A stretch of DNA of 49,438 nucleotides from Prosthecobacter sp. (lineage in GTDB: Bacteria; Verrucomicrobiota; Verrucomicrobiia; Verrucomicrobiales; Verrucomicrobiaceae), in assembly GCA_021733925.1 (NCBI GenBank), contig JAIPJY010000052.1:1-49438 (forward strand), given 5' to 3'. The translations under genes and the position numbers were made by a program. Positions 6,690 to 49,290 of this stretch are shown here, one piece after another; position 1 is the stretch's first letter; every line of letters starts with the position of its first letter. The notes below the pieces were generated by a model, which was not told the origin of the DNA, ran no database searches, and saw nothing but the letters and a program-made list of their open reading frames with translations.

Positions 6690-8981
6690 ATGAAGTACGC
6701 ACCCTGTCTTTTCTCCATCTTCATCGGTCTTTCTCTTCACGCCGCCGACTCATCCACCCTCGATGCAGATCTCCTCATCGTCGGTGGCAATGAATCAGCC
6801 TGCGCAGCAGCAGTTCAGGCCGCACGTCTCGGCGTAAAGAAGATCGTGCTGGTAAATGACATCGACTGGCTCGGTGGGCAGTTCAGCGCGGAAGGCGTCG
6901 GTTGTCCCGATGAGTGGACCGGTGTGAATGGCCGCCGCGTGAATTTCCCGCGCAGCGGCATCTACAGCGAAGTCATCAACCGCATCCGCGCCCACAACTC
7001 ACAGACCTACGGCATCCCATCTCCCGGCAATTCCTACTGCGGCACCGAAACCATCGAACCCGCCGCCGCCGCGAAGATTTTCGAGGAACTCGTCAAACCC
7101 TACGTCGATTCCGGTGTGCTTCGCATCGAGCGCGGCTGGCAGCCGGACAAGGTGCTCGTCGAAAACAACCAGGTCACCGCCTGCCTCTTCGTACGTAGTT
7201 CGGGCTTTAGCCCGTCTGGAAAGCCTCTCACCGTCCACGCGAAACTCACCCTCGACTCCTCCGACTGGGGCGATGTCATCCGCCTCAGCGGCGCGAAATA
7301 CGGCGCAGGCCCAGATCTAAAATCCCGCTTCGGCGAAGCCAGTGCCCCCGCAGCCTTCGATGACGCCGGCCAGCAGGAAATGAATCCCCTCTCCTGGTGT
7401 GTCGTCCTGCGCGAAGCAGGAAAGAACAGCACCATCCCCAAACCCGCGAGCTACGACGCACGTTCCTTCGCACAGCTCGACAAAACACCGCCGTGGGTGG
7501 ACAGCGACATGAGCACGGGCACCTACAGCCAGTCGGGCTGGAGCGTGTACACACATCGGCGTTTGGTGGACCGCTGGCACAACGACCTCGCACCCGGCAC
7601 CGAGGCGACGTTTCTAAACTGGCCCGTGCAGGATTACCCGCTGTGCCAGCTGCCACAGCGCGTGGTGGATGCGCTCGAAAAAACCGAGGCCGGTGCATCG
7701 AAGAAAAACATCGTCAATCTCACACCTGCGCAGCGGCAGATCATCTTCGATGACGCGAAGCAGCACACGCTGGCCATGCTCCACCACCTGCAAACAGCGG
7801 TTCATGATCGCGTGGGCGATTTCCCCCAATCGTTCCGCTACATGAAGCTCACCACCGAGTTCGGCACCTCCGATCTGCTGCCGCCAAAGCCCTACGTACG
7901 CGAAGGCCTGCGCCTGGAAGCACTCTACATGCTGCGCGAGCAGGACATCCGCGCCGAAACCCGCGAACCCAAGTGGGCGAAGGTGATGGTGCCGGATGGC
8001 CTGTTCGGCTTTCAGTTCAACATCGACTTCCATCCCACGCGCCGCCGCTTCCTCACCGAGGATCGCAATGGCCCATGGCTGTACGTGCAGACACCCTCAC
8101 GCGGCTGGCACACCGACACCGACCGCGCGATGTTCCCCCTGCGCGGCCTCGTGCCGGTGCAAGTAAACGGCCTGCTCGGCTGCTCCAAGAACATCGGCGT
8201 CAGCAGCGTGGTGCAGAGTGCACTGCGTCTGCACGGCCAGATGATGCACGTCGGTCAAGCCAGCGCCACACTCGCTTGGCTCTGCCTGCGCGATGGTGTC
8301 CAGCCACGTGCGGCAGCAGCGTCGCAAAAAAACTGGCGCGAGATTCAGCTGCGTCTCGTGCGCGGCACGGGTGGTCCCGGCGTGCTCCTCTGGCCCTGGC
8401 AGGATCTTCCCACCGACGCCTCACATTTTGAAGCCGCAAACATGCTCGCCGCGCGCGGCATCTGGCCCGCAGAAGCCAGCAGCGTCTTCTTCAATGCGGA
8501 ACACGTCATGACACGCCGCGAACTCGCCCGCGTGCTGGCCCGAATCATTCGCGCCAAATCGAACCCACCCGAGTGGAAAGTCGCCGCAACGCCACGCTTC
8601 ACAGACGTCGGCCAGGACGATGCAGATCGTGCGGCCATCGAGTCCCTTTGCTCCTGGGGCATCGTGACAACCGACAAGACCTTCCATCCCGACAACAAAG
8701 CCGATTGGGCCACGCTCTATCGCTGGGCCACCGCCTTGAAGCTCTCCGTGAATCCCGGCCTCTTCAGCAAAGACGTCGCTCAGCGTCCGCTTCTGCGCGC
8801 CGATGCCGTGGTGCAGCTCTGGCATGCGCTGAATCAGCAGGGCGAGTGGCATAACACCGACAATGCCTGGCTGCAGCCTGACAACGATCACGATGAGGAT
8901 GACCGCAAGGATCTCGATGATCCCCTGCCCTTCGACAGCAATAACAACAGCGTGCCCGACCGCCTGGAGCACCTGCCGTAA
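6690..8981 (+). CDS. Secreted FAD-dependent oxidoreductase with SLH-like repeats
   Basis: 763 residues from ATG 6690. A signal peptide (MKYAPCLFSIFIGLSLHAAD) precedes an FAD/NAD-binding Rossmann start, ADLLIVGGNESACAAAVQAARLG, with the variant glycine motif usual for the FAD_oxidored family (Pfam PF12831), then LVNDIDWLGGQ. After about residue 580 there are two S-layer-homology-like units (AARGIWPAEAS...MTRRELARVLARI and FTDVGQDDADRAAIESLCSWGI). The acidic, Asp/Asn-rich tail (DNDHDEDDRKDLDDPLPFDS) looks calcium-binding. Together these suggest an exported, envelope-anchored enzyme. The substrate is unknown. It ends 3 bases from the convergent YdeI-like gene. Confidence 0.88.
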   Translation: MKYAPCLFSIFIGLSLHAADSSTLDADLLIVGGNESACAAAVQAARLGVKKIVLVNDIDWLGGQFSAEGVGCPDEWTGVNGRRVNFPRSGIYSEVINRIRAHNSQTYGIPSPGNSYCGTETIEPAAAAKIFEELVKPYVDSGVLRIERGWQPDKVLVENNQVTACLFVRSSGFSPSGKPLTVHAKLTLDSSDWGDVIRLSGAKYGAGPDLKSRFGEASAPAAFDDAGQQEMNPLSWCVVLREAGKNSTIPKPASYDARSFAQLDKTPPWVDSDMSTGTYSQSGWSVYTHRRLVDRWHNDLAPGTEATFLNWPVQDYPLCQLPQRVVDALEKTEAGASKKNIVNLTPAQRQIIFDDAKQHTLAMLHHLQTAVHDRVGDFPQSFRYMKLTTEFGTSDLLPPKPYVREGLRLEALYMLREQDIRAETREPKWAKVMVPDGLFGFQFNIDFHPTRRRFLTEDRNGPWLYVQTPSRGWHTDTDRAMFPLRGLVPVQVNGLLGCSKNIGVSSVVQSALRLHGQMMHVGQASATLAWLCLRDGVQPRAAAASQKNWREIQLRLVRGTGGPGVLLWPWQDLPTDASHFEAANMLAARGIWPAEASSVFFNAEHVMTRRELARVLARIIRAKSNPPEWKVAATPRFTDVGQDDADRAAIESLCSWGIVTTDKTFHPDNKADWATLYRWATALKLSVNPGLFSKDVAQRPLLRADAVVQLWHALNQQGEWHNTDNAWLQPDNDHDEDDRKDLDDPLPFDSNNNSVPDRLEHLP

Positions 8982-29511: not shown

Positions 29512-30069
29512 ATGCCCTCCTCCGTCACCGGCGTCATCCAAGATCTCGAACGCATCCTGCTCACTCCCGCGCAAATTAGCGCCCGGGTGGACGCCATGGC
29601 TGCGAGGTTAAATGCGGAACTCGCAGGCAAAGTCGTCACCGTCGTGGCGCTCATGGACGGCGGCCTCTTCTTCGTGGCCGATCTGCTCCGCAAACTCGAA
29701 CTGCCTGTGCGCCTCTACACGCTGAGCGCCAGCAGTTATCAGGGAGGCACCGCCACCACCGGCGAGGTGACGGTGAACTGGCCTGCCAGCCTCGATTTGC
29801 GCGATCAGGACGTGCTACTGCTGGATGACATCCTCGATACCGGCCTCACGCTCAGCGCCATTTGCGAGCGCATCCTCGCGCAACAGCCCGCCACGCTGCG
29901 CGCATGCGTCCTGCTCAGCAAACGCCGCCCGCGACTGCGTGAGGTGCCGCTGGATGATGCCGGCTTTGAGATCGACGACGAATTCGTGGTCGGCTACGGC
30001 ATGGATTACATGGGCCGCTTTCGCAATCTGCCGTGCATCGGCATCCTCAACCCAAACTCGCCGTCATGA
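29512..30069 (+). CDS. hpt: Hypoxanthine phosphoribosyltransferase
   Basis: 185 residues from ATG 29512; the upstream part of the frame is antisense to pdxH. Type I PRTase: PRPP loop LLLDDILDTGLTL (about 102-114), MDGGLFFVADLLRKL near the amino end and the purine-contact region DDEFVVGYGMDY. Salvages hypoxanthine/guanine to nucleotides in the cytoplasm. It overlaps the MoaD-like gene by ATGA. Confidence 0.94.
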   Translation: MPSSVTGVIQDLERILLTPAQISARVDAMAARLNAELAGKVVTVVALMDGGLFFVADLLRKLELPVRLYTLSASSYQGGTATTGEVTVNWPASLDLRDQDVLLLDDILDTGLTLSAICERILAQQPATLRACVLLSKRRPRLREVPLDDAGFEIDDEFVVGYGMDYMGRFRNLPCIGILNPNSPS

Positions 30070-30311
30070 AACTGCGCGTGCTCTTCTTCTCCGTCCTGCG
30101 CGACATCACCGGCACGGACGAAATCACTCTCGAAGTGCCTGCCGGTGCCACGATGGGCGACTTGCTCGATCAGATCGAAACCCGCTGGCCCAAGCTGCGC
30201 GACTGGCAGAACAGCCTCCTCCTGGCCCTGGACCAAACCTACGTGAAGCGCGATGAGCCGCTGCACGACGGCGGCGAAGTCGCCATCATGCCGCCGGTGC
30301 AGGGGGGGTAG
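30066..30311 (+). CDS. MoaD/ThiS-family sulfur-carrier protein
   Basis: 81 residues from ATG 30066. The ubiquitin-like fold is suggested by MKLRVLFFSVLRDITGTDEITLEVPAGATMGDLLDQIETRWP and the carboxyl end PPVQGG carries the diglycine used for adenylation and thiocarboxylation. This is the pattern of the small molybdopterin synthase subunit. No MoaE or MoeB is next to it; instead it overlaps hpt by 4 bases. ThiS-like roles are an alternative. Confidence 0.85.
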   Translation: MKLRVLFFSVLRDITGTDEITLEVPAGATMGDLLDQIETRWPKLRDWQNSLLLALDQTYVKRDEPLHDGGEVAIMPPVQGG

Positions 30312-30314
30312 GGT

Positions 30315-31496
30315 TCACGCATGGCGCGTGGTCACGAGATCTGCCTGCGCAGCCCAAAGGGCGATGTCCTCCTTCTTGATCGCGGCGGCCATGAGCGCGG
30401 GGAATTTGTCCGGCGTGCAGGCAAAGCTGGGAACACCGAGCAGGCTCATCCTGGCGGCGAGCTGCTGGTCATAGCAGGGGGCACCTTCGTCGCTGAGTGC
30501 CAACAAGGTGATGAATTGGACGCCGCTTTGCACCAGCTCGTTGGTTCGCTGGAGGAGATTCTTTTCCACACCGCCTTCGATGAGGTCGGAGATCAGCACG
30601 AGGATGGTGTTGGTCGGATCCGTGATGAGACTCTGGCAGTAACCGACGGCTTTGTTGATGTCGGTGCCGCCGCCAAGCTGGGTGCCAAAGAGCAATTCCA
30701 CGGGGTCATCGAGCTTCTCCGTCAGATCGACCACGGCTGTGTCGAAGACCACGAGCTGCGTCTTCACGGCGGGCAGGGAGGCCATCACGGCACCGAAGAT
30801 GCTCGAATACACGACGCTGGCGGCCATCGAACCGCTCTGATCGATGCAGAGGATGATGTTCCTCTGGGTTTTCTGCGCCTTGCGGCCGTAGCCAATCAAG
30901 GTCTCCGGCACCACCGTCTGGTAGTCCTTTTGGTAATGGCGCAAATTGGCGCGGATGGTGCGGTTCCAGTCGATTTCGGCCAGTCGTGGCCTGCGATTGC
31001 GCACGGCACGGTTCAGCGCACCGGTCACCGCCGTGCGCATGGGCTCGGCAAGTTTGCGCATGAGTTCTTCCACCACCTTGCGCACGACCATGCGGGCGGT
31101 CTCCTTCGTCTTGGCGGGAATGACGCCGGAGAGTGAAATCAAACTCGCCACGAGGTGCACATCCGGCTGCACGGCCTCCAGCATCTCCGGCTGCAGCAGC
31201 ATTTCGCGCATGCCGAGGCGGTCCAGCGCATCCTGCTGCATCACCTGCACGACGCTGGCGGGGAAGTATTTGCGGATGTCGCCCAGCCAGCGTGCCACGC
31301 GCGGCGCGGACTTTTCGGTTCCGCCACGCCGGGGGCCCTTCATGCCGCCGGGTCCATCAGGCTCATAGAGTGCGCCGAGCGCCTGGTCGATCTCGATGTC
31401 TTCGCCGCTCAGACCACAGCAGGATTCATTCGCTTCGCCGCCGAGGGCGAGGCGCCAGCGGCGCTGACGTTCGGTGTCTGTGCGTGACGTGCTCAT
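30315..31496 (-). CDS. VWA-domain protein of the MoxR/SWIM cluster (YehP-like)
   Basis: 393 residues. The amino half is helical; the carboxyl half is a von Willebrand A domain with a complete metal-ion site: DQSGS (about 219-223), Thr in GGGTDIN (about 278) and Asp in LISDLIEGG (about 304). VWA proteins of this kind work with MoxR ATPases. Length and order match E. coli YehP as I recall it. Last gene of the cluster; its start overlaps the DUF5682 stop by ATGA. Confidence 0.88.
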   Translation of the reverse strand: MSTSRTDTERQRRWRLALGGEANESCCGLSGEDIEIDQALGALYEPDGPGGMKGPRRGGTEKSAPRVARWLGDIRKYFPASVVQVMQQDALDRLGMREMLLQPEMLEAVQPDVHLVASLISLSGVIPAKTKETARMVVRKVVEELMRKLAEPMRTAVTGALNRAVRNRRPRLAEIDWNRTIRANLRHYQKDYQTVVPETLIGYGRKAQKTQRNIILCIDQSGSMAASVVYSSIFGAVMASLPAVKTQLVVFDTAVVDLTEKLDDPVELLFGTQLGGGTDINKAVGYCQSLITDPTNTILVLISDLIEGGVEKNLLQRTNELVQSGVQFITLLALSDEGAPCYDQQLAARMSLLGVPSFACTPDKFPALMAAAIKKEDIALWAAQADLVTTRHA

Positions 31497-33760
31497 GAGT
31501 TCAGTCCGAGGATTTTTTCCAGCACAGCCAGCGGCTTCTGGGCGCGTGCTTCATTCCATTCCACAGTGACGGCTGTCTGAACTGCTGGACTGGCCGCACC
31601 GGAGTGCTTTGCACGCGCACCGAGCTGGGTGCGCTCCGTGCCGGGGAAGAGTGAGAAGGTGCGCCGGACCAGCGGCAGGATGCGGATGAAGCTTTCATCA
31701 ATCAAGGAAGCAAGCCATGCGTCCAAGGTCTGCCACAAACGGTCATCGTGGAGCAGCACCATGCCGCTCTGGTGAAGGAATCCCTCAAGCCATGCCGCAG
31801 CGGGCGCGGGATCGTTGCCGATGGAAAGCGCCTGGCTCATGCGCGTGGCCGTGGCATCGGCATCCTCGGTCTTTTCATCAAACAGCAGCCGGGCGGCCAG
31901 CCCGCACACGAGTCCATGCGTACCGCCCAGCATGGCCAGGCGTGTGAGTGCGGGCATCCAGTCGGCGAGATGGCTTTCGTTACCGATGAGCTTGATGGCC
32001 TGATGCGTGGCGATGATGCGTTTGCGCATGGCGGCGGCGGCATCGTCATCCAGAGAAGCACATGCACCGCCGAGGCTGATGCAGGCGCGCGTGACGAGGC
32101 CGTCGAGCACATGACCGACCAGCGAGGCATCGGTCTGGCGCACGTTGCCGTAGCGGAAGATGTTGGCCAGCGGAGGAATGGCTTCGAGCAACTGCGAGGC
32201 ATCGCCCGCGATGGCAGCCAGGTTTTCCAATGCGCGCGTCACGGGCTCCACGGCATGCGGGAGGTGGGCAAGCAGCACGCGATCGACGAGCGCGGAGAGC
32301 GCGGGCAGGGATTCAGCCTGCTGCGCCTGATCGATGGCCAGCGCCGTGGCTGCGTCACTGATCGTGTGCCCCCAGCGGCAGGCTTCAATGATGGCCACTG
32401 CGAACTCGGGCTGCCATTGCAGCTGCCACACTTCATGAAAGGTGCCCTTGGCACTGCGGCCGGTGCCGCGTACTTCTCCCCACTGAATGCCGAGCAGTTT
32501 CAGCCGGTGCAAAAGGTGGCTGCGGCTGAGGTCGTTCTCGTTGCGCAGATCCAGATCGAGCTCCTTCGCGAGTGCTTCAGGCTTCAGGCGCAGGCTGCGC
32601 TGCTGCTTCTCCAAATCCTGCTGCAGTGGCACGGTGGGCACATCTGGCGGGACGCGACCCAGTTTCTCGCCCACGATCAATCGGGCACGAATGAGCTTCA
32701 GCGGCGCATCCTCGCCCATGCAGATGACCGTGCGGATGGACTCGTTGATTTCATCGAGTCCGGCGGCGGGACGCTCGCGCATGGCGGCGAGTGCATCGCT
32801 GAGACGTGCGGCTTCGATGACGTGCGCGGAGGAGCAGTCGATGTCTTCCTCACGCATCAGCCGCGCGACTTTGGAGATCCATGCGATGGAGCGCTGCGAA
32901 GCTTCGGCGGCCTGGTTTTTCCAGAGAAACTCATACCAGCCTGGCGACAGCACCCCGGCGCCATAGCCGCTGGCCGCAGCGAGGCGGCCATATGTCCAGG
33001 GAGCCCATGTCGCAGCCACTTTGACCTTGGGCAGTCCTTTGAGCAGATCGTTGTCCGCCTTTGCGCTCGGCATGGTGGCGAGTGCGGGCACATGCCATGC
33101 GCCGCACACCACGGCGATCTTTTGAAACCCATCCTTCTCAGCCTGACGGATGGTTTTGCGCATGTGTGCTTCACGCAGTGCCTCGCGCTGCTGTGACTGA
33201 GGTGGCAGCTTGCGCGGGATCTCCGCACGGACACTCGTCATCGCCTCCTGGATAGCGGCAAAGAGGCCCGCGCTGTCGGCATCGCGGCGTTCTTCGACCA
33301 TCTGGTTCCACCATGTCTCGCCATCGCCATAACCCGCCGCGCGGCCCAGCCAGTCAAGCGGATCGCCCGAGATGTCATCGGCTTCAGCTTGATCGGACTG
33401 ATCGGTCCGATCTGACGGATCTACGGCCATGGAAGGCTCATCCCGCAGCGCCAGATCGTGCGCCTGCGGCAGATCCATGAAGCGCACCGGTACGCTGCGC
33501 GTGAGTCCAAAGCGGATGGCCTGCCACTCCGGCGAAAACTCCGCGAAGGGATAAAACGAAGCCTTCTTCGTATCGTCCGGGCAGTACAACAGCAGCGCCA
33601 CCGGCGGCTCGATCTCCGCATGAATCGCCGATGCCAGCACGGCCTCCGCCTCAGGCGGGCCTTCGATCAAGATGCAATCCGGCGACAAATCCTCCAGCGC
33701 CCGGATCAAAGAACGAGCGCAACCGGGGCCATGATGGCGGATGCCGAAGAGGTGGGTCAT
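31493..33760 (-). CDS. DUF5682-family protein (YehM-like)
   Basis: 755 residues from ATG 33760. It begins MTHLFGIRHHGPGCARSL and continues LSPDCILIEGPPEAEAVL. Around 219-226 it has CGAWHVPA. The pairing of His-rich strand ends with EGPP recalls the TraB/TIKI/EreA-type fold, so a hydrolase or peptidase activity is conceivable, but this is inference. The rest is mostly helical. Size matches E. coli YehM (about 760 residues, from memory). Overlaps genes on both sides by ATGA, showing tight coupling with the VWA and the unrecognised upstream protein. Confidence 0.85.
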   Translation of the reverse strand: MTHLFGIRHHGPGCARSLIRALEDLSPDCILIEGPPEAEAVLASAIHAEIEPPVALLLYCPDDTKKASFYPFAEFSPEWQAIRFGLTRSVPVRFMDLPQAHDLALRDEPSMAVDPSDRTDQSDQAEADDISGDPLDWLGRAAGYGDGETWWNQMVEERRDADSAGLFAAIQEAMTSVRAEIPRKLPPQSQQREALREAHMRKTIRQAEKDGFQKIAVVCGAWHVPALATMPSAKADNDLLKGLPKVKVAATWAPWTYGRLAAASGYGAGVLSPGWYEFLWKNQAAEASQRSIAWISKVARLMREEDIDCSSAHVIEAARLSDALAAMRERPAAGLDEINESIRTVICMGEDAPLKLIRARLIVGEKLGRVPPDVPTVPLQQDLEKQQRSLRLKPEALAKELDLDLRNENDLSRSHLLHRLKLLGIQWGEVRGTGRSAKGTFHEVWQLQWQPEFAVAIIEACRWGHTISDAATALAIDQAQQAESLPALSALVDRVLLAHLPHAVEPVTRALENLAAIAGDASQLLEAIPPLANIFRYGNVRQTDASLVGHVLDGLVTRACISLGGACASLDDDAAAAMRKRIIATHQAIKLIGNESHLADWMPALTRLAMLGGTHGLVCGLAARLLFDEKTEDADATATRMSQALSIGNDPAPAAAWLEGFLHQSGMVLLHDDRLWQTLDAWLASLIDESFIRILPLVRRTFSLFPGTERTQLGARAKHSGAASPAVQTAVTVEWNEARAQKPLAVLEKILGLNS

Positions 33761-34575
33761 GGGGCTTTTCCAAAAAGTTTGCTCCAGAATCCTTTTTTGG
33801 CTGGAGTTACGTCTTGGGACGGACTGTCCGAAAGAATTCGTCCCGACAGCCAAAACGAGCCCTGCACCAAACCGCCCACCACAGGCTGACGCTCCACAAG
33901 CGCCGGATCAATGACAACGTCAAACTGTCCGCCGAGAGTCTGCACCAGCGCCCACCAGTAGGAGATGTTGGTCAGCGAGTTCGTCTTATGCTCGACTGCT
34001 AAAATCTTGCCCACGAACAAGCCGCGCGCCTTGGTTCCCTCCCGATCTCCGAACAAACCGGACGGAATAAATGACTCCGCTGCCATTTTCAGACTGTCCT
34101 CTGTTTGTGCTGCATAGAAGGTCGCCTCATCTTCAAAGAGGGCGATCTCATGAGCAAAAGCTGCAATCTGGACTTCCCCAATTATAGGCAAAGTTTGATT
34201 TCGATGCACGGATGCATCTGGCGCGTCGAACACAAACGGATAGGTCCCAGTCATCTCGTTGCTTTCTGCTGCCACTGCTGGCTCCGACCAGCCATGAAAG
34301 CTTCCGTCCAAGACGGATGGTGTCTCTGATGGCATGTAAGCGGTCAATCCCACGCGCATTCGTGCCGGACCATGGAAGTGTGGATTGATGCCTGCATACT
34401 CACGATTTCGATCAATTTGCAGCCAAAGCTCAGCTCCGCATGTCGAGCGCCATTGCAGGTACGTGCCATCTATCGAAGGCAGCTGCTTCGTTTGCGGAGC
34501 CACTGCTTTGGCAAAATTGTTGATGTCCTCCATTGAGGAGACCGGCATTCCAATGGTTGAAAAGTGACTGGGCAT
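33757..34575 (-). CDS. Unrecognised protein inserted in the MoxR/VWA cluster
   Basis: 272 residues from the ATG at about 34575 (MPSHFSTIGMPVSSMEDINN); the longer frame to 34683 overlaps the AAA gene and is unlikely. No signal peptide or membrane segment. Visible blocks are GAELWLQIDRNREYAGINPHFHGPARMRVGLTAY, LDGSFHGWSEP and VVGGLVQGSFWLSGRI; the body appears all-beta. Not assigned. It lies 26 bases after the AAA gene and overlaps DUF5682 by ATGA, so it belongs to the operon. Its bases look less GC-rich than its neighbours', hinting at a later addition. Confidence 0.78.
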   Translation of the reverse strand: MPSHFSTIGMPVSSMEDINNFAKAVAPQTKQLPSIDGTYLQWRSTCGAELWLQIDRNREYAGINPHFHGPARMRVGLTAYMPSETPSVLDGSFHGWSEPAVAAESNEMTGTYPFVFDAPDASVHRNQTLPIIGEVQIAAFAHEIALFEDEATFYAAQTEDSLKMAAESFIPSGLFGDREGTKARGLFVGKILAVEHKTNSLTNISYWWALVQTLGGQFDVVIDPALVERQPVVGGLVQGSFWLSGRILSDSPSQDVTPAKKGFWSKLFGKAP

Positions 34576-34601
34576 ACAAGTGAGAGCAGGTGCTTGCTGT
34601 T

Positions 34602-35681
34602 TTAAATCACCTCCCGACACGCGCGATACAGATCCTTCCAGTCGTCGCGTTCCTTCACGACGGTTTCGAGATACTCCTTCCACACCACCACGTCCTGCAC
34701 GGGATCTTTGATGATGGCTCCGACCAGACCGGCGGCGACATCGCCTGCGCGAAGAGTGCCGTCTCCGAAGTGCGCGGCGAGTGCGATGCCGCTGTTGAGC
34801 ACGCTGATGGCTTCGGCGGTGCTCATGGTGCCGGTGGGTTGCTTGAGCTTGGTTTTGCCATCGGCGGTCTGGCCGTCGCGCAGTTCGCGGAAGACCTGGA
34901 CGATGCGGCGCACTTCCTTGAGTGCGGGTGGTTCGGATGGGAGTTCGAGCGCCTTGCCCATCTCCCCCACGCGCTTGGTGACGATGGCAATTTCCTCGGC
35001 TTCGGTGGCGGGCACAGGCAGCACAACGGTGTTGAAGCGGCGTTTGAGTGCGCTGCTGAGTTCGTTCACGCCTTTGTCGCGGTTGTTCGCGGTGGCGATG
35101 ACGTTGAAGCCGCGGTTTGCCTGCGCCTCGCTGGAGAGTTCAGGAATGGGCAGCGTCTTCTCGGACAAAATGGTGATCAGCGTGTCCTGCACATCCGCCG
35201 GGATGCGCGTGAGCTCCTCCACACGGGCGATGCGGCCATCGCTCATTGCCTTCATCAGCGGGCTTGGAACGAGCGCCTCTTTCGACGGACCTTTGGAAAG
35301 CAGCAGCGCGTAGTTCCAGCCGTAGCGCATCTGCTCCTCGCTCGTGCCAGCGGTGCCCTGGACAAGCCGGGTGGAGTCACCGGAAATCGCAGCGGCGAGG
35401 TGCTCTGACACCCAGCTTTTCGCGGTCCCAGGCACGCCGTAGAGCAGCAGCGCGCGGTCCGTGACCAGCGTGGCGACGGCAATCTCAATCACCCGCCGGT
35501 TGCCGATGTATTTAGCGCTGACCTCAAAGCCGTTGTCGAGCCTGCCGCCGAGCAAGTAGGTGGCCACCGCCCACGGCGACAGATTCCAGTTTGTGGGCCG
35601 CTGCCGTGTGTCGGCTTTTTGCAGTTCATCGAGTTCGTGAGCAAAAAGCTGTTCGGCGTGTTGGCGGAGGGTGTTCATCAT
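34602..35681 (-). CDS. MoxR-type AAA ATPase (YehL-like)
   Basis: 359 residues. Walker A is GVPGTAKS (about 82-89). The Walker B region is RIARVEELTRIP, with the catalytic Glu but without the usual preceding Asp. Sensor 1 is NVIATANNRDKGVNELSSALKRRF. This matches the MoxR branch, whose members act as chaperone-like motors on VWA partners. A tandem start (two ATGs, 35681 and 35678) is present. It lies between DUF5691 (26 bases) and the unrecognised gene. Size matches E. coli YehL (about 362 residues, from memory). Confidence 0.92.
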   Translation of the reverse strand: MMNTLRQHAEQLFAHELDELQKADTRQRPTNWNLSPWAVATYLLGGRLDNGFEVSAKYIGNRRVIEIAVATLVTDRALLLYGVPGTAKSWVSEHLAAAISGDSTRLVQGTAGTSEEQMRYGWNYALLLSKGPSKEALVPSPLMKAMSDGRIARVEELTRIPADVQDTLITILSEKTLPIPELSSEAQANRGFNVIATANNRDKGVNELSSALKRRFNTVVLPVPATEAEEIAIVTKRVGEMGKALELPSEPPALKEVRRIVQVFRELRDGQTADGKTKLKQPTGTMSTAEAISVLNSGIALAAHFGDGTLRAGDVAAGLVGAIIKDPVQDVVVWKEYLETVVKERDDWKDLYRACREVI

Positions 35682-35707
35682 GGATGGAAGGTTTCAGTTT
35701 TAAAGTT

Positions 35708-37228
35708 TCACACAGAGAGCTGGCGACGTTGATCGAGCACCATGCCGACACGCGCCACGGCCTCGGCGAAGGGCTGGGCTTCTTCTTTGGTGAGATCCCA
35801 GCCGTTCGCAAAGTCGTCAAAAGCGACTTGCGGCATGATGCAGGCGAGCTCGACGAGTGATGCACGAAGCTGCCAGTCGTAGCGCGCCTCGCCGCTCTGG
35901 ATGCGCTGCTTCAGGATCTGGATCACTTTGGCCGCAGTCGCAGGTGACAGCGTCGGTGCGCCGAGCGGGAGGCCTTTGATGAAGCGATCAATCACCGTGC
36001 TGAAGGCGACCACATTGGAGTTGTTGTCGGTCAGCAGCTTGAGGAAATGCGGCTCCCGCATGGCAGGTGGCAGAGTTTCGAGCAGGTCAAAAATGGTCAG
36101 CGGCCCGTTCGGCGGCAGGGTCGTGCTCAGGAAAGCCTCCGCCCACTCCACGCGACGCTGCACCGCCTGAGCTTCGGCCCAGGCTTGCAGCAACACGTCT
36201 TTCCAGTCTGACTTCTGCGCCCAGGCCAGGCACTCGGCAGGGGTCATGCCAGTCTCGGTTTCCCACCAGCGCAGTGGCACCTGACGCACGATTTGAAACA
36301 GCCACCACGCGCGTTCGCCAATGCTCAGGTTCTTGGGCTTTGCTTCTTCAATCAAATCGGTTTTCCAAGTGGCATCGTAGGCGGCGGGCGCTTCGAGAGT
36401 GATGACCGATCCGCGCAGCAGCTTTTTCTCGGACTTCAAACACAGCGCCGCACGCGCCGCCATGCGCTGGGCGAAGCGCGAGTCAGGCAGCTTGGAAAGC
36501 AGCCGTGCCGCCACCTGCCGGGCCTCCTTGCTTTTGTCCGCGAGTGTCGCTTCAAGCAGATCCTGATCATCAGGAGTAAGTCCTGTGCCAAGGCATTCGA
36601 TGAACGCGGTGCGCTCCTTCGCGCCTTCCGTGGTCATGGCGGTGCGGCACAATTCGCGCGCCTGCTCGGCATCGGTGGCTCGTAGGGCCATGAGATAAAG
36701 CCGACGCTGATCCAGACTGCCGAGGTGCCACACATCATCGCTGATGGTGTCCATGTTCACAGCGCCTGCGGCATAGCCCCATGCATCGTTTTGCGCAGCG
36801 AGCCAGGCCCCACGCGGGCCGAGCACTGCCAGCAGGCTGGGACGTAAGGCCGTGCTGCGTCGCCCGCATTCCAATGCCTTCGGCAGCAGGCGATGCGGGA
36901 GAAGTTTGCCCGTGCTGGCAATGGCTTGAAACGCCTCGGCCTGCAGACGCTCGGGCCCGTCCGCCAGGATGGCTGCCAGCAGATCCATGCGCACATCCTG
37001 GGGTCCAGATTCTGAAGGTGCAGGAGCGGCACCCATCTGCGCTGGCAGCAGGCCCGCGAGCTGGAAGGTGCCGAGCACGCCGGCCGATTGCAGCAGTGCT
37101 TTCTCCACGAAATCACGCGGGATGCGTCCGAGAAGGGCTCCGACTGGGCCCTCAGGAGCCGGCCATTCGGGCGGATGTCTTGCGGTGCCAAGGAGCGCAC
37201 TGGTGGCAAGGGATGCGAGTGCGCTCAT
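35708..37228 (-). CDS. DUF5691-family protein
   Basis: 506 residues, alpha-helical repeat-like throughout (LGTARHPPEWPAPEGPVGALL near the start; later LLEATLADKSKEARQVAARLLSKLPDSRFAQRM). It has no catalytic motif. The HEAT/TPR-like make-up suggests a scaffold or adaptor. Its start overlaps the SWIM gene stop (ATGA). In this family it is always seen by me next to SWIM, MoxR and VWA genes. Confidence 0.82.
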   Translation of the reverse strand: MSALASLATSALLGTARHPPEWPAPEGPVGALLGRIPRDFVEKALLQSAGVLGTFQLAGLLPAQMGAAPAPSESGPQDVRMDLLAAILADGPERLQAEAFQAIASTGKLLPHRLLPKALECGRRSTALRPSLLAVLGPRGAWLAAQNDAWGYAAGAVNMDTISDDVWHLGSLDQRRLYLMALRATDAEQARELCRTAMTTEGAKERTAFIECLGTGLTPDDQDLLEATLADKSKEARQVAARLLSKLPDSRFAQRMAARAALCLKSEKKLLRGSVITLEAPAAYDATWKTDLIEEAKPKNLSIGERAWWLFQIVRQVPLRWWETETGMTPAECLAWAQKSDWKDVLLQAWAEAQAVQRRVEWAEAFLSTTLPPNGPLTIFDLLETLPPAMREPHFLKLLTDNNSNVVAFSTVIDRFIKGLPLGAPTLSPATAAKVIQILKQRIQSGEARYDWQLRASLVELACIMPQVAFDDFANGWDLTKEEAQPFAEAVARVGMVLDQRRQLSV

Positions 37229-38568
37229 GCGAGTGTGGGCACCTCCGTCCAGCAGGGAGTATTTTCATTGAGCTGCCAGGCCGTCAGTGGCCGCCAGAGG
37301 ACTCCATGCCACTCGCCGAAGAGGGTCAAAGGATGACCACCGCCAAGGGCGAGCAACTGCCAGCCATCGTCATCGCTGACGCGCAACGGTGCCTCGCGCC
37401 CATCGGCATCACGTGCCAGCCACTGCCGCCCGCGAAGAACCGGCGTGGCATGATGCAGGAGCACTGGCAGGCGTTGGAACCAGGGCTGACGTGCCAGTGC
37501 CAACGCGACAGAATCCAGCGCGCAATCCCAGGTCACGATGGGTTCACCCGGGGCGCTTACCGAGGCCTCAACAGGAGCATCCACCAGCAGTGCGCGCAGT
37601 GGCGACGCACTCGGGAAGAAGCACAGCGCGGCCTTCAATCGCGTGCCCGCTACAAACACCTGGTCATAGCGCCGGCCGCCGTGTGAAAAGTCGAGCAGCA
37701 GGGCATCGCGGCGCGTTGTCGATCCACGCAACCACACGCGGCGTTCCCACAGCTTGTCATTCTCATCGTGGCTTACACCTAGTACCTGCCATGTGTCCTC
37801 CACACGATCGTTGCCGGCCAGCACTTCGTCCTTGTCCGCCGTCCAGCCCGCGCTGCTGCGTACATCATGACGGAGTGGCTCTGGCAGCGAGTCCAAGCGC
37901 TGCAGGGCGTCAGTGAGCAGTTGCATGCGCCCCATCTGCAACAGCGCACGCTCCTGCCAGCCCTCGCCTGATGACACCGCAGCCTCAAGCTGGCGCACCC
38001 ACACGGCAAGCCCCGTGGCCTGGGCGTCCACCAGTCGTGCGGCAGCCTCCCGCCAGTAGGTGACCGGCTTCGCCGGCAGATCCGCAATGCCCTGACGCAC
38101 GAGATCTGCCAGCCAGCGCTCCAGATCACGAGCACCACCGAGCATGCGGTCGAGGCGTTTCGCCTCCCGCTTCGCGGTGGCTGCCTCATCGACGGGCTTC
38201 GCCTCGGCCTGCACCGCTTTTTTCTCCGCCTGCTTTTCGCTGCGCTGCTGCCGTGCGGAGAGCCATTCATTCACCCAGGCCGGCTGCGTGTTCGCCGTGA
38301 AGGCGCTCTGCTTCTGCGCCAGCAGCAGGTACAACGCCAGTCCATGCTTGCATGGAAACTTGCGGCTTGGGCAGCCGCATTTGAACGATGGTCCGCTGAC
38401 ATCGATGATCACCTGATAGGGCTTGGAGCCACTCCCCTGGCACTCACCCCAGATCGCCACTTCATCATGCCCGAGAGTCGGCCACTTTGCTGGAGCCAGC
38501 AATCCTCTGGCCGCCTTGGCCGACGAATCGTCGGGAGAAAGGGCAAGGATTTGGTCGGCGGTCAGCAT
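37225..38568 (-). CDS. SWIM zinc-finger protein (YehQ-like)
   Basis: 447 residues from ATG 38568. The zinc motif is C64-x-C66 ... C73-x-H75 in FKCGCPSRKFPCKHGLALY, the SWIM pattern for nucleic-acid or protein binding. A charged KRLDRMLGGARDLERWLADLVRQGI stretch and a long Trp-rich carboxyl part follow. First gene of the six-gene cluster and translationally coupled to DUF5691. The longer frame to 38688 has no family similarity. Confidence 0.88.
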   Translation of the reverse strand: MLTADQILALSPDDSSAKAARGLLAPAKWPTLGHDEVAIWGECQGSGSKPYQVIIDVSGPSFKCGCPSRKFPCKHGLALYLLLAQKQSAFTANTQPAWVNEWLSARQQRSEKQAEKKAVQAEAKPVDEAATAKREAKRLDRMLGGARDLERWLADLVRQGIADLPAKPVTYWREAAARLVDAQATGLAVWVRQLEAAVSSGEGWQERALLQMGRMQLLTDALQRLDSLPEPLRHDVRSSAGWTADKDEVLAGNDRVEDTWQVLGVSHDENDKLWERRVWLRGSTTRRDALLLDFSHGGRRYDQVFVAGTRLKAALCFFPSASPLRALLVDAPVEASVSAPGEPIVTWDCALDSVALALARQPWFQRLPVLLHHATPVLRGRQWLARDADGREAPLRVSDDDGWQLLALGGGHPLTLFGEWHGVLWRPLTAWQLNENTPCWTEVPTLA

Positions 38569-38742
38569 TTTAACGCATCCAAGCGAAAGTCCGACGAATT
38601 GGCAAGAAAAGCCTTCGTCTCTTTCAATGTCTTGCGGATGTCTCCCACAAGTCATCGTAAAGCCCGGAAAGGATAATTCTGCTGACAAGCCGGATCATTT
38701 GTACATGATTGCAGGTGTCCAGTCTCTTAACTGCCAAACCAC

Positions 38743-39369
38743 ATGCGATTGATTCTCGTCGATAGAGGTAAAGAGCTTTGTGACGTGCTGCGCTGGGAGT
38801 TTCGCGCACACCCCGAGGTCGAGATCGTCCATGGTCGTTTCGAAGATCTGCCTGTGTTTGATTGCGTGATCACCGCAGGCAACTCATTTGGCTTGATGGA
38901 CGCAGGAATGGACCTCGCCGTCGTGCGTTATTTTGGCAGGCACGTCATGGAGCGTGTTCAGAAACAGATCCTTGATGATTACCTCGGGGAACAACCGGTA
39001 GGCACCTGCATCCTCATTCCGACGGATCATGCGTCACATCCTTTTGTAGCCCATGCACCCACGATGCGAGTCCCCATGAACATCCAGGGCACGGATCATG
39101 TTTATCTGGCGCTGTGGGCATCGCTCACTGCGGTGCATCGGCACAATCGTGTTGAGGCAAGGCAGATCAAAAATCTTGCGTGCCCCGGTCTAGGCGCGGG
39201 GACCGGTGGGGTGGATGCACTTGAGGCGGCCATGCAACTACGTCTGGCCTATGAGCACTTTCAGAGGCCGGCGAAATTCATCAATCCAACCATGGCGCAG
39301 GAAAGACACGAGCGCATCCACTACGGTGGATGCTCCGGGTTTGCCAATCCTCGTCAGTCAGGTCACTGA
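38743..39369 (+). CDS. Macro-domain protein
   Basis: 208 residues. Macro-fold ADP-ribose-binding signatures are FDCVITAGNSFGLMDAGMD (about 39-57) and LACPGLGAGTGGVD (about 145-158). Macro domains bind or hydrolyse ADP-ribose and its derivatives. It has no membrane segment or other domain; the last part (NPTMAQERHERIHYGG) is charged. It is divergent from the SWIM gene (174 bases between starts), so shared regulation with the cluster is possible. Convergent with the channel gene. Confidence 0.85.
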   Translation: MRLILVDRGKELCDVLRWEFRAHPEVEIVHGRFEDLPVFDCVITAGNSFGLMDAGMDLAVVRYFGRHVMERVQKQILDDYLGEQPVGTCILIPTDHASHPFVAHAPTMRVPMNIQGTDHVYLALWASLTAVHRHNRVEARQIKNLACPGLGAGTGGVDALEAAMQLRLAYEHFQRPAKFINPTMAQERHERIHYGGCSGFANPRQSGH

Positions 39370-39413
39370 TCGATTGATGCCAGCAGATAACATCATCGGC
39401 ATCCGAATGAGCT

Positions 39414-40292
39414 CTACTCCAGCGCCACGCCACACTGCTGACAGTGCCGCGCACGGGAATCATGGTCGTCCCAACCGCACTCCTTGCACCGGCGGCGGAT
39501 GCGGGATCCTTTCAGCTCACGGCCAAGCTCGGACGTCACAATGCCCGTGGGCACGGCGATGATGGCGAAGCCGGTAAGCATGATCACAGACGCCATCATT
39601 TTTCCCAGCACGGTTACCGGCGCGACATCGCCGTAGCCGACCGTGGTGATGGTGACGATGGCCCAGTAAATCGATTGCGGGATGTTCGCGTAGCCGGGAT
39701 TGGCATCGTGTTCGATCACATACACGATCGTGCCTTCCACACACACGAGTGAGAGCACGGCGGAGAAGAAGATGAGGATCTTGCGCCGGCTGGCGCTCAG
39801 TGCGTTCATGAGTACGCCCGCCTCGCCCATGTACTCGGCCATCTTCAGCACACGGAACATCCGCATGAGTCGCAGAACCCGCACCGTCGTGAGATAGTGC
39901 GAACCCGGCAGCAGCAGAGAAATGAAAGCCGGCAGAATCGACAGCACATCGACAATGCCGAAGAAACTTCGTGCGTAGGTCCATCGCTTTCGCACCACCC
40001 ACAGGCGCGTCAGGTACTCCAGCGTGAACAACCCGGTGAACACCCATTCGAGTGTGTTGAACAACGAGCCGTGCTGCTCCCGCAGCGAGTCAACGCTCTC
40101 CAGCATGATCGTCAAAACACTCAGGCCGATCAGCCAAAGCAGCAGAACATCGAAAACGCGGCCTGCCTTCGTGTCAGAAAGGAAGATGATGCGCCAGATG
40201 CGTTCGCGGGTGGAATCCGGATCCTGGGAGGGGCCTGTCATGCGGAAGAAGAGCAGGCGCAGCCAGTGCATGCAAGCCATCAACCGCAGCAC
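39414..40292 (-). CDS. Voltage-gated potassium channel with C-terminal zinc ribbon
   Basis: 292 residues. Six membrane segments; S4 is VRVLRLMRMFRVLKM (about 137-151) with regular Arg, and the pore filter is TVGYGD (217-222). At the carboxyl end CKECGWDDHDSRARHCQQCG (269-288) has four Cys in CxxC pairs, a zinc ribbon that is not usual for KvAP/Kch-type channels. Start at 40292 or at a later in-frame ATG. Its own start is 34 bases after the DUF1501 stop, so it may be read in the same transcript. Confidence 0.92.
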   Translation of the reverse strand: MLRLMACMHWLRLLFFRMTGPSQDPDSTRERIWRIIFLSDTKAGRVFDVLLLWLIGLSVLTIMLESVDSLREQHGSLFNTLEWVFTGLFTLEYLTRLWVVRKRWTYARSFFGIVDVLSILPAFISLLLPGSHYLTTVRVLRLMRMFRVLKMAEYMGEAGVLMNALSASRRKILIFFSAVLSLVCVEGTIVYVIEHDANPGYANIPQSIYWAIVTITTVGYGDVAPVTVLGKMMASVIMLTGFAIIAVPTGIVTSELGRELKGSRIRRRCKECGWDDHDSRARHCQQCGVALE

Positions 40293-40326
40293 CTTCGAAA
40301 GATCGCCCCAGCTTACCGTTGTGAAA

Positions 40327-41778
40327 TCACACCAGCAGATCCTTCACCACGTGGCCGTGGATGTCGGTGAGGCGGTAGTCGCGGCCTTGGAAGCGGTAGG
40401 TCAGGCGCTCGTGGTCAAAACCAAGGAGATGCATCACAGTGGCTTGGAAGTCATGCACATGGACTTTGTTTTCAGCGACGCTGAAACCGAGTTCGTCGGT
40501 GCTGCCGTACTCGAAGCCGCCCTTCACGCCGCCACCGGCCATGAAGAGTGAGAAGCAGTCGGGGTAGTGATCGCGGCCGAGCACTTTGCTGGCGGCGGTA
40601 CGGCCTTCGCGGAAGGGTGTGCGCCCGAATTCACCGCCCCAGATCACGAGGGTGTCATCGAGCAGACCTCGCTGTTTGAGGTCTTTGATCAGCGCGGCCA
40701 CGGGCTTGTCGGTGGCGGCCATTTTGTTCGTGAGGCCGGTGGTGATGCCGCTGCCTTCGCTGGTGCCGTGGAAATCCCAGCCCCAGTCGAAGAGATTCAC
40801 AAAGCGCACGCCTTTTTCAATGAGACGCCGGGCGAGCAGGCAGTTGTTGGCAAAGCTGGCCTCGCCGGGCTTGGCGCCGTAGGCTTCGATCACATGCTGC
40901 GGCTCCTTCGAGATGTCCATGACCTCGGGCACGCTGGTCTGCATGCGAAAGGCGAGTTCATACTGGGCCATGCGCGTGACGGTCTCGGGATGGCCGAATT
41001 CGGCAACCTGCTGCTGATTGAGATCCTGCAGAGCATCGAGCGTCTTGCGGCGCATGGCGCGGTTCATGCCGGCGGGATCGCTCACAAAAAGAACGGGGTC
41101 GCCTTTGCTGCGGCATTGCACGCCCTGATACACGCTGGGGATAAAGCCGCTGCCCCAGCAGCCCTGGCCGCCGCTCGGCTGCGTGCCGCTGGAGATGAGT
41201 GCGACAAAGCCCGGCAGATCTTGATTCTCCGTGCCCAGACCATACGTGGCCCAAGAGCCCATGGAGGGCCGGCCCTGCCGTGCATGCCCGGTGAAGAGCA
41301 GCAGCTCCGCTGGCGCGTGATTGAACTGATCCGTGTTCATGGAGCGGATCATGCACATCTCATCGGCGATGGTGTGGAAGTTTGGGCAGGCATCGCTCAT
41401 CGTGATCCCGCCTTTGCCGTAACGCGCAAAGGTGCGGGGGGTGCCCATGAGCTTGGGCACTCCGGTGGTGAAGGCAAAGCGCCGGCCTTTGAGAATCGAG
41501 TCGGGGCAGTCCTGCCCGCTGCGCTTCACGAGCTCCGGTTTGTAATCAAACAGATCGAGGTGCGGCGGCGCTCCCGACATGTGCAGGTAGATCACCCGCT
41601 TCGCCTTCGGGGCATACTGCGACTTCTTTGGCGCGAGTGGATTGTCCGACGCCGCACTGGCGCCCGCCTTCTGCTGCATCGCATGCATGGCGATGGCCCC
41701 GAGGCTGAACTGGCCCGCGTTGCCGAGGAACTGACGGCGCGTCTTGAGCTGAAGGGTGTCGTGAGTGATGGGGTTCAT
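40327..41778 (-). CDS. DUF1501 (PVC sulfatase-fold) secreted protein
   Basis: 483 residues. A twin-arginine signal, TRRQFLGNAGQFSLGAIAMHA, directs folded export. The body fits DUF1501 (alkaline-phosphatase/sulfatase-like fold): HMSGAPPHLDLFDYKP, RSMNTDQFNHAPAELLL, VIWGGEFGRTPFREG and VHDFQATVMHLLGFDHERL. It is the invariant partner of PSD1 proteins. Nineteen bases separate it from the upstream PSD1 gene. Confidence 0.94.
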   Translation of the reverse strand: MNPITHDTLQLKTRRQFLGNAGQFSLGAIAMHAMQQKAGASAASDNPLAPKKSQYAPKAKRVIYLHMSGAPPHLDLFDYKPELVKRSGQDCPDSILKGRRFAFTTGVPKLMGTPRTFARYGKGGITMSDACPNFHTIADEMCMIRSMNTDQFNHAPAELLLFTGHARQGRPSMGSWATYGLGTENQDLPGFVALISSGTQPSGGQGCWGSGFIPSVYQGVQCRSKGDPVLFVSDPAGMNRAMRRKTLDALQDLNQQQVAEFGHPETVTRMAQYELAFRMQTSVPEVMDISKEPQHVIEAYGAKPGEASFANNCLLARRLIEKGVRFVNLFDWGWDFHGTSEGSGITTGLTNKMAATDKPVAALIKDLKQRGLLDDTLVIWGGEFGRTPFREGRTAASKVLGRDHYPDCFSLFMAGGGVKGGFEYGSTDELGFSVAENKVHVHDFQATVMHLLGFDHERLTYRFQGRDYRLTDIHGHVVKDLLV

Positions 41779-48690: not shown

Positions 48691-49290
48691 ATGTACGCCT
48701 GGCGAAAATGGACGCAGGAGATGCGTGAAGAAGCTCTGCAACGCCGCAGGTTACTGATTCGTCCTTGGCATGGACCGCCGCACTTCACTGGCCAGCAGAC
48801 AAGTCAGTATCTCATCACAGGCGCATGCTACGAGCATGAACCCATCATCGGAGCCTCGATAGAACGCATGGATGATTTCGTGAAGCAGGTACAACACGCG
48901 TTTGAGTCAACCAACGCCGTCATCCACGCATGGTGCGTCTTGCCCAATCACTACCATGTGCTTGCGACCACTCCAGACCTCGCGCCCCTCATTGCGAGTC
49001 TCGGCAAGCTGCATGGGCGCATGTCCTTTGCCTGGAATGGTGCTGACAAATTACGTGGGCGTATTTGCTGGCATCGCACCACAGATCGCGCCATGCGCAG
49101 CGAAGCCCACTTCTGGACGACCGTGAACTACATCCATCACAATGCCGTAAAACACGGCCATGCGTCCAAATGGACCGAATGGCCTTGGTCCAGTGCCCAT
49201 GATTACCTGCGAGAGACCGGCCGGGATCAAGCGGCCCGCATCTGGCAGGCCTATCCCCTCCTCGAATACGGCTCCGGTTGGGATGATTGA
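48691..49290 (+). CDS. REP-associated tyrosine transposase (RAYT)
   Basis: 199 residues. The Y1 HUH-type signature is LPNHYHVL with His87-x-His89 at the metal site. The catalytic Tyr is probably Tyr147 in TVNYIHHNAVKHG, a strongly conserved stretch in this family. The ITGACYEHEPII amino region and WPWSSAHDYL near the end are also typical. RAYTs cut and rejoin single-stranded REP hairpins. The gene is intact and directly follows two REP-pair copies. It is domesticated in most hosts and not usually an active insertion sequence. Confidence 0.94.
   Translation: MYAWRKWTQEMREEALQRRRLLIRPWHGPPHFTGQQTSQYLITGACYEHEPIIGASIERMDDFVKQVQHAFESTNAVIHAWCVLPNHYHVLATTPDLAPLIASLGKLHGRMSFAWNGADKLRGRICWHRTTDRAMRSEAHFWTTVNYIHHNAVKHGHASKWTEWPWSSAHDYLRETGRDQAARIWQAYPLLEYGSGWDD

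Follow-up and report, generated by a model that had tools for sequence, protein, structure and literature searches.

Our findings identify, in a 49,438-nucleotide (nt) stretch of Prosthecobacter sp. DNA (contig JAIPJY010000052.1, hereafter the window), a mobile and conserved five-gene unit that encodes a SWIM zinc-finger protein, a DUF5691 protein, a MoxR AAA+ ATPase of the YehL type, a DUF5682 protein and a VWA protein. The comparison of loci suggests that a sixth gene, lodged between the MoxR and DUF5682 genes, is dispensable and exchangeable cargo in a fixed slot, and not a member of the machine. DUF5682 begins with a domain that modelling supports as TraB/Tiki-like, and we propose, with confidence that is about evenly balanced, that an ATP-driven MoxR-VWA machine loads or switches this TraB-like hydrolase of its own, with DUF5691 and the SWIM protein, which probably carries oligonucleotide/oligosaccharide-binding (OB) folds, as adaptors.

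Layout and conservation of the five-gene unit

The window belongs to a 7.3 Mb genome, and its closest DUF5682 relatives are found in the Verrucomicrobiaceae. The six-gene cluster is real: six genes lie on the same strand between 30315 and 38568, and all six open reading frames (ORFs) are open. The features are as follows.

37225-38568, minus strand: SWIM zinc-finger protein, 447 amino acids (aa) counted from the start chosen in an earlier note made from the DNA letters alone
35708-37228, minus strand: DUF5691 protein, 506 aa
34602-35681, minus strand: YehL-type MoxR AAA+ ATPase, 359 aa
33757-34575, minus strand: slot (cargo) gene, an ORF of unassigned function, 272 aa
31493-33760, minus strand: DUF5682 protein, YehM homologue, 755 aa
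30315-31496, minus strand: VWA protein, YehP homologue, 393 aa
30313-38712, no strand: mobile unit, which the empty site of congener L137 lacks

Four-nucleotide overlaps occur at three of the five junctions (SWIM/DUF5691, slot gene/DUF5682 and DUF5682/VWA) and 26-nt gaps at the other two (DUF5691/MoxR and MoxR/slot gene), and these overlaps and short gaps between co-directional genes bear out the claim of the earlier note that the genes form a single coupled operon. A search for regulatory sites gave 2 promoter-like sites with 1.8 expected and 12 terminator-like sites with 7.0 expected, and was not used. In a Pfam scan of the six proteins, DUF5691 (PF18944, E 8.2e-125), DUF5682 (E 1.8e-273), MoxR (AAA_5, E 4.5e-38) and VWA (VWA_CoxE, PF05762, E 1.6e-51) were matched, while the SWIM match, at 19.0 bits, fell slightly below its 19.6 cut-off.

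A scan of species genomes returned at least 590 pattern matches, at least 575 of them encoding a relative, from which the best 80 loci were kept. The exact order SWIM-DUF5691-MoxR-DUF5682-VWA is repeated in 60 of these 80, and the cluster is therefore not due to chance. Among the remaining 20, L057 and L082 keep the order with a split ORF, L072 has the VWA gene first, SWIM and DUF5691 share a single ORF in L045 (Hydrogenophaga), and the last 16 are incomplete: around half of them lie at contig ends, and the rest lack some members in the stretch fetched. The loci come from Verrucomicrobiota, Pseudomonadota, Cyanobacteriota, Chloroflexota, Bacteroidota, Acidobacteriota, Planctomycetota and other phyla. 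Across 288 genomes of the window's phylum, DUF5682 is present in 10 (9 above the cut-off) and DUF5691 in 7, with both in 6, DUF5682 alone in 4 (one below the cut-off) and DUF5691 alone in 1 (Fisher p 1.9e-9 for co-occurrence, without correction for relatedness). In two cyanobacteria and one member of the Chloroflexi (L018, L063 and L076) DUF5682 is unlinked, and the members persist although dispersed across the genome: the YehP-type VWA and the YehL-type MoxR in three of three and a SWIM protein in two of three, with no other member found within about 10 kb of the YehP-type VWA gene. Since the members are co-inherited even without linkage, a joint function is well supported. The five genes thus constitute a conserved unit; the co-occurrence raised in the earlier note holds for them.

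The earlier note also likened the cluster to the yehLMPQ genes of Escherichia coli. The E. coli locus, yehI-yehK-yehL-yehM-yehP-yehQ (L002), encodes a YehL-type MoxR, DUF5682 and VWA in the same order and has a SWIM protein in its operon, and by BLASTP the window proteins are homologous to YehL (41% over 356 columns, E 5e-80), YehM (28% over 494 columns) and YehP (36% over 368 columns). The likeness stops at YehQ, which is encoded last, gave no significant BLASTP match to the window SWIM protein and cannot be aligned with it outside the zinc finger. The gene sets also differ, which corrects the earlier note: in E. coli K-12 DUF5691 is missing next to yehL, DUF4132 (YehI) stands upstream and no gene separates yehL from yehM. 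Passages of PMC3893208 place YehL as one of seven MoxR subfamilies and give E. coli K-12 two MoxR ATPases, RavA and YehL. No assigned role for YehL was found in the literature searched, nor any paper on DUF5682 or DUF5691 within the collection searched, in which two papers mention at least two of the names yehL, yehM, yehP and yehQ.

DUF4132 is itself a recurrent associate of the unit. Its profile is present in 10 of 103 DUF5682-bearing loci, near-copies included, lying upstream of MoxR in E. coli and Iodobacter, between DUF5682 and VWA in Sinorhizobium, after VWA in L049 and L051, immediately before DUF5682 in L087 and, in L154-L156, inside the slot; these different positions in different phyla argue that it is functionally tied to the unit. 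A candidate equivalence of DUF5691 and DUF4132 was rejected, as profile comparison did not detect it (probabilities 0.2 and 0.5).

The component proteins

Motifs were read from alignments that excluded proteins with stops or unusual length and loci above L082. In MoxR, G82, P84-K88, E155-E156, N199 and R214-R215, the residues of Walker A, Walker B, sensor 1 and the arginine positions, are invariant in 72 of 72 rows; the P-loop of the window reads GVPGTAKS, with S89 present there and outside the positions conserved at 97%. The MoxR profile matched YehL and two plasmid homologues with probability 100, and the closest solved chains are Midasin (E 1.2e-10) and NorQ (E 0.0031). With its full-length relationship, intact motifs and nearby VWA gene, the protein is a predicted ATPase of the YehL subfamily. 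The VWA gene accompanies MoxR across the conserved loci, confirming the AAA-VWA pairing that had been anticipated, and its metal-ion-dependent adhesion site (MIDAS) residues D219, S221, S223 and D304 are invariant in 73 of 73 rows. The zinc-finger residues of the SWIM protein, C64, C66, C73 and H75, are likewise invariant (64 of 64 rows). Given this invariance, motor, metal-ion grip and zinc finger are all expected to work. In the plasmid copy from Methylosinus (L121:11157-12382) VWA matches are split over three overlapping ORFs of different frames, and the VWA gene there thus looks broken.

The DUF5682 protein is supported as a TraB/Tiki-like N-terminal domain, from residue 1 to about 265, followed by a mostly helical-repeat-like remainder. 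The assignment, which supports a TraB-like fold guessed at in the earlier note and is new here, draws on a model match over residues 1-235, a short profile match (TraB profile built from 17 of 18 loci), paired GX2H motifs and a conserved glutamate. TraB/Tiki proteins are defined by two GX2H motifs and a conserved glutamate, and the GX2H pair was seen in the 17 TraB proteins compared. The motifs GIRH, E33 and GAWH are conserved among 82 DUF5682 rows, with the two GX2H motifs 214 residues apart, as against 195-227 in those 17 proteins. DUF5682 differs from TraB/Tiki proteins in being fused to the long helical-repeat part and encoded with its own MoxR-VWA machine, and PF01963 (TraB_PrgY_gumN) gave no match at E up to 1 in the Pfam scan, for which reason we term it TraB-like and not a PF01963 member. 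Ere-type enzymes are described with a 2His/2Glu site in part of PMC6254334; compared by motif position, with no structural superposition, two histidines and one glutamate have counterparts in DUF5682, and the first Ere-type glutamate has none in GIRH. Profiles of EreA and ChaN scored probabilities of 1.0 and 5.2, which is uninformative since they comprised only 2 and 3 sequences. A search of PDB sequences with DUF5682 gave nothing up to E 1, and Foldseek with the DUF5682 and SWIM models gave no match at E up to 0.001; the families covered are those that VIA-align lists. PHROG 30700, a phage family of unknown function, matches residues 4-483 of DUF5682 (E 5.2e-34).

The SWIM protein comprises a ZSWIM8-like SWIM fold (residues 1-112) and a helical region (113-245), after which residues of about 247-437 probably form tandem OB folds, judging from a weak match. 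This probable combination of a ZSWIM8-like finger with two OB folds is new here; against PDB sequences, the protein matched nothing up to E 5. DUF5691 may perhaps be a HEAT-like scaffold, its matches to HEAT (E 0.1) and HEAT_2 (E 0.13) both falling under the Pfam cut-off. The two proteins lie in one ORF in a Hymenobacter plasmid (L124:3183-6212, 1009 aa) and in Hydrogenophaga (L045:5560-8784, 1075 aa), which supports a physical association between them.

The cargo slot and the mobility of the unit

The window and its near relative L003 share 89-91% DNA identity along the unit, and this identity stops at 33761, the start of DUF5682, and resumes at 34604, the stop of MoxR. Between these points L003 (of which L084 is a copy) has an unrelated 241-aa gene with no Pfam match, and L004 (copied in L085 and L145) has an unrelated 118-aa gene matching DUF705 at 20.6 bits, a family that we take to be HAD-like; homology of L004 to the window ends at 33764 and 34600. 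The 'extra gene' counted by the earlier note as a sixth cluster member thus fails to persist between close relatives. The window's own slot gene has only a weak Pfam match (DUF3881, E 0.0019, below the cut-off), and PDB matches to antibody chains, at E 0.033 and worse, were taken as chance. Among congener loci it has a homologue only in L083 (60%), and among the 288 phylum genomes, a sample without the genome of L083, only the window's own copy was found. A further homologue (41%) lies on an Enterococcus raffinosus megaplasmid (L091:4001-4747), a few kb from an ORF that we take to resemble EsaA/YhgE membrane proteins; a secretion or immunity context is possible there.

Gaps of more than 200 nt occur between MoxR and DUF5682 in 10 of 76 loci; the other three junctions show 6 such gaps in 209 cases (Fisher p 0.002), and DUF5691/MoxR shows 1 in 69 (p 0.0098), both p values being uncorrected for relatedness. 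The count omitted L001, L084 and L085 as copies of other rows, along with junctions that had split genes, mixed strands or distances outside -3000 to 7000. Among others, L006 holds a C5 DNA methylase and a partner gene in the slot, L043 a nucleotidyltransferase, L013 a weakly TPR-like protein and L040 what is presumably a transposase. Five other genomes of the phylum have both families and stand outside this count: in three of them, all from Verrucomicrobia (L154-L156), the slot is filled by a DUF4132 protein of 1023-1034 aa, accompanied in L156 by a PIN gene and its likely antitoxin, and in the other two it holds none. Plasmid loci of Deinococcus and Hymenobacter carry a small slot gene, and that of Methylosinus has none. 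A short open stretch between MoxR and DUF5682 in L055 (9727-9992), which we take to be a fragment of a 3'-5' exonuclease-like gene, is perhaps the remnant of former cargo. In L004, an ORF between DUF5691 and MoxR (7912-8643; weak Kinase-PolyVal match, 1.1e-4, below the cut-off) occupies a further insertion point besides the slot.

Within the genus, DUF5682 is found in the window and only 3 of 34 congeners. Ten congener regions were compared: the locus of G009 and one moaD region from each of nine congeners. Eight of the nine moaD regions are without the unit, and in L137 window position 30312 joins directly to 38713, a clean empty site. The unit occupies the same moaD site in L144 (G011) and L003. 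The G009 locus shares only 30341-38569 with the window, so the unit sits elsewhere in that genome. With an empty site in one congener and another location in a second, the unit is mobile. In a DUF5682 tree, built by a quick method with midpoint rooting and containing a very long E. coli branch, the window's group of three joins 30 mainly pseudomonadotan rows with support of 97, apart from the other verrucomicrobial rows. Taken together, the patchy distribution among congeners, the empty site, the relocation and the tree placement favour a horizontal gain of the unit, perhaps with loss in some lineages.

Although the VWA gene ends 3 nt from moaD (30033-30311), a link to the molybdenum cofactor was rejected: the moaD region is present in 32 of 34 genus genomes with or without the cassette, and the neighbourhood is thus an insertion site. 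Across the genus, the content between moaD and the next conserved gene (40327-41778; window interval 30312-40327) varies from near-empty, through a macro-domain gene with an ion channel, a gene read as trypsin-like (L138-L140) and 4.3 kb of other genes (L141), to the cassette. The macro-domain protein that stands divergently beside the operon (38743-39369, plus strand; PF01661, 4.1e-11) is also found at the empty site of L137, and this stretch is therefore part of the site, outside the unit. Farther away, an ORF at 48691-49290 (plus strand) had no Pfam match at E 0.01; we take it to be a look-alike of REP-associated tyrosine transposases. The one DUF5682-bearing 'phage' record, MT835988, has long chromosomal-looking genes and was taken as a mis-binned bacterial contig, and phage carriage was rejected, with no relative confirmed in a scan of viral contigs either.

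Proposed function and alternatives

In the mechanism we propose, a MoxR-VWA remodelling machine of the YehL type would act on DUF5682 as a dedicated client from the same operon. DUF5682 would contribute a TraB/Tiki-like hydrolase domain, probably one that depends on metal, with helical repeats behind it; the VWA protein, with its intact MIDAS, would grip it by a metal-bridged contact, and the MoxR ring would spend ATP on metal loading or a conformational switch, in the way that NorQ-NorD act on nitric oxide reductase. Recruiting or licensing the complex, perhaps on nucleic acid, would fall to the SWIM-OB protein and DUF5691. DUF5682 is proposed as the built-in client because its TraB-like domain is the only enzyme-like fold found besides the ATPase. 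According to parts of PMC7159879, it is common for MoxR-VWA pairs to insert metal into a client or to remodel it, and published abstracts describe NorQ-NorD as such a pair. NorQ-NorD, CoxD-CoxE and RavA-ViaA resemble the window unit in joining a MoxR ATPase to a VWA partner, in the VWA_CoxE type of the latter and in Midasin and NorQ being the nearest MoxR structures; they differ in serving respiratory or metal enzymes, whereas the pair described here is encoded next to DUF5691, a TraB-like protein and a SWIM protein that probably carries OB folds.

The alternative that survives best, though we regard it as unlikely, is a nucleoside triphosphate (NTP)-dependent conflict system against phages or other elements, in which the SWIM-OB protein would sense foreign nucleic acid, MoxR-VWA would transduce the signal and DUF5682 or the slot gene would be the effector. 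The distribution within genus and phylum is patchy, the unit is mobile and its changing cargo includes the methylase pair and the PIN gene with its likely antitoxin, and on plasmids the unit has type I restriction genes (L117) or the gene of a PDDEXK nuclease (L124) in its vicinity. The MoxR-vWA ternary conflict systems, as presented in portions of PMC7159879, likewise combine MoxR and VWA with further conserved proteins; their exchangeable effector in a stable operon may have a counterpart in the changing slot genes here, and the GxxxTAKS P-loop of the window is the form reported there for FtsH and beta-propeller systems. The main text of that paper contains neither SWIM nor Yeh, however, and the Pfam scan of the six proteins revealed no VMAP, iSTAND, FtsH or beta-propeller component (bpMoxR 26.8 bits, cut-off 27) and, unlike in those systems, no domain C-terminal to VWA. 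Most slots here are empty, with no gap above 200 nt in 66 of 76 loci. DNA of yehL-yehQ is matched in 5301 of 5426 E. coli genomes (80% cover in 5162); being near-core in this species, the yeh locus is unlike a typical patchy defence locus. No strong system match was found in PADLOC-DB 2.0.0, with weak local hits only, the best of them to PDC-S62 (1.7e-5, SWIM region), followed by WGR_XIII (8.5e-4, DUF5691) and IetA (0.0029, MoxR), and a scan of viral contigs gave 40 pattern matches with no relative confirmed. Nor do the flanks provide a clear defence context. In a rough look, with no background rate, at the nearest qualifying gene per side (108 of 187 collected proteins), single neighbours matched models of reverse transcriptase, AbiEi and HEC-06, yet none of the 85 matching PADLOC models, 25 of which are listed, hit more than two neighbours, and the 25 listed of 107 Pfam families belonged for the most part to ordinary metabolism and transport. 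When flanking ORFs were grouped by similarity, the largest group, ABC ATPase-like, spanned 7 loci, and the others, DUF4132 excepted, are close relatives or general families.

We find it improbable that the unit is a general assembly or metal-insertion chaperone for a client outside the operon, in the manner of RavA-ViaA, with DUF5682 as a structural adaptor. MoxR-VWA pairs mostly serve external complexes according to parts of PMC3893208 and PMC7159879, VWA_CoxE is the best match of the VWA protein and, of the four congeners that bear the cassette, three have it next to moaD; moaD, however, marks an insertion site, as set out above, and no specific flanking family is widely common to the loci. 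Least probable of all is a role in genome stress, in which the SWIM-OB protein would bind single-stranded DNA at damage and the machine would, with YehI/DUF4132, remodel or cleave a stalled protein: the OB-like half and the repeated presence of DUF4132 agree with it, as does a Deinococcus operon with DUF4132 whose expression, according to PMC8533742, rises strongly once the damage repressor DdrO is depleted, though not in irradiated irrE-deleted cells, but the match to OB folds is weak and reveals no function, and DUF4132 is found in few of the loci.

The dedicated MoxR-VWA machine for DUF5682 is thus the reading we prefer. The TraB-like domain in the partner family of YehL, the tie to YehI/DUF4132 across phyla and the probable OB half of the SWIM protein would turn an orphan locus into a testable machine, and they raise the questions of which metal and substrate are involved and whether VWA and MoxR switch DUF5682. 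More speculatively, and in our view rather unlikely, yehI/yehLMPQ-type loci may form one widespread class of mobile NTP-driven switches, running from a SWIM-tandem-OB sensor of nucleic acid through a MoxR-VWA ring to a TraB-like metallohydrolase and responding to damaged or foreign DNA, whose slot between motor and hydrolase repeatedly takes up genes of DUF4132/YehI, of restriction, of toxin-antitoxin pairs or of unassigned function, which would serve as interchangeable effectors or determine specificity. The cargo slot and the mobility of the unit are new here, and so precise a slot amounts to a natural experiment, one that could tell what such a machine is able to control.

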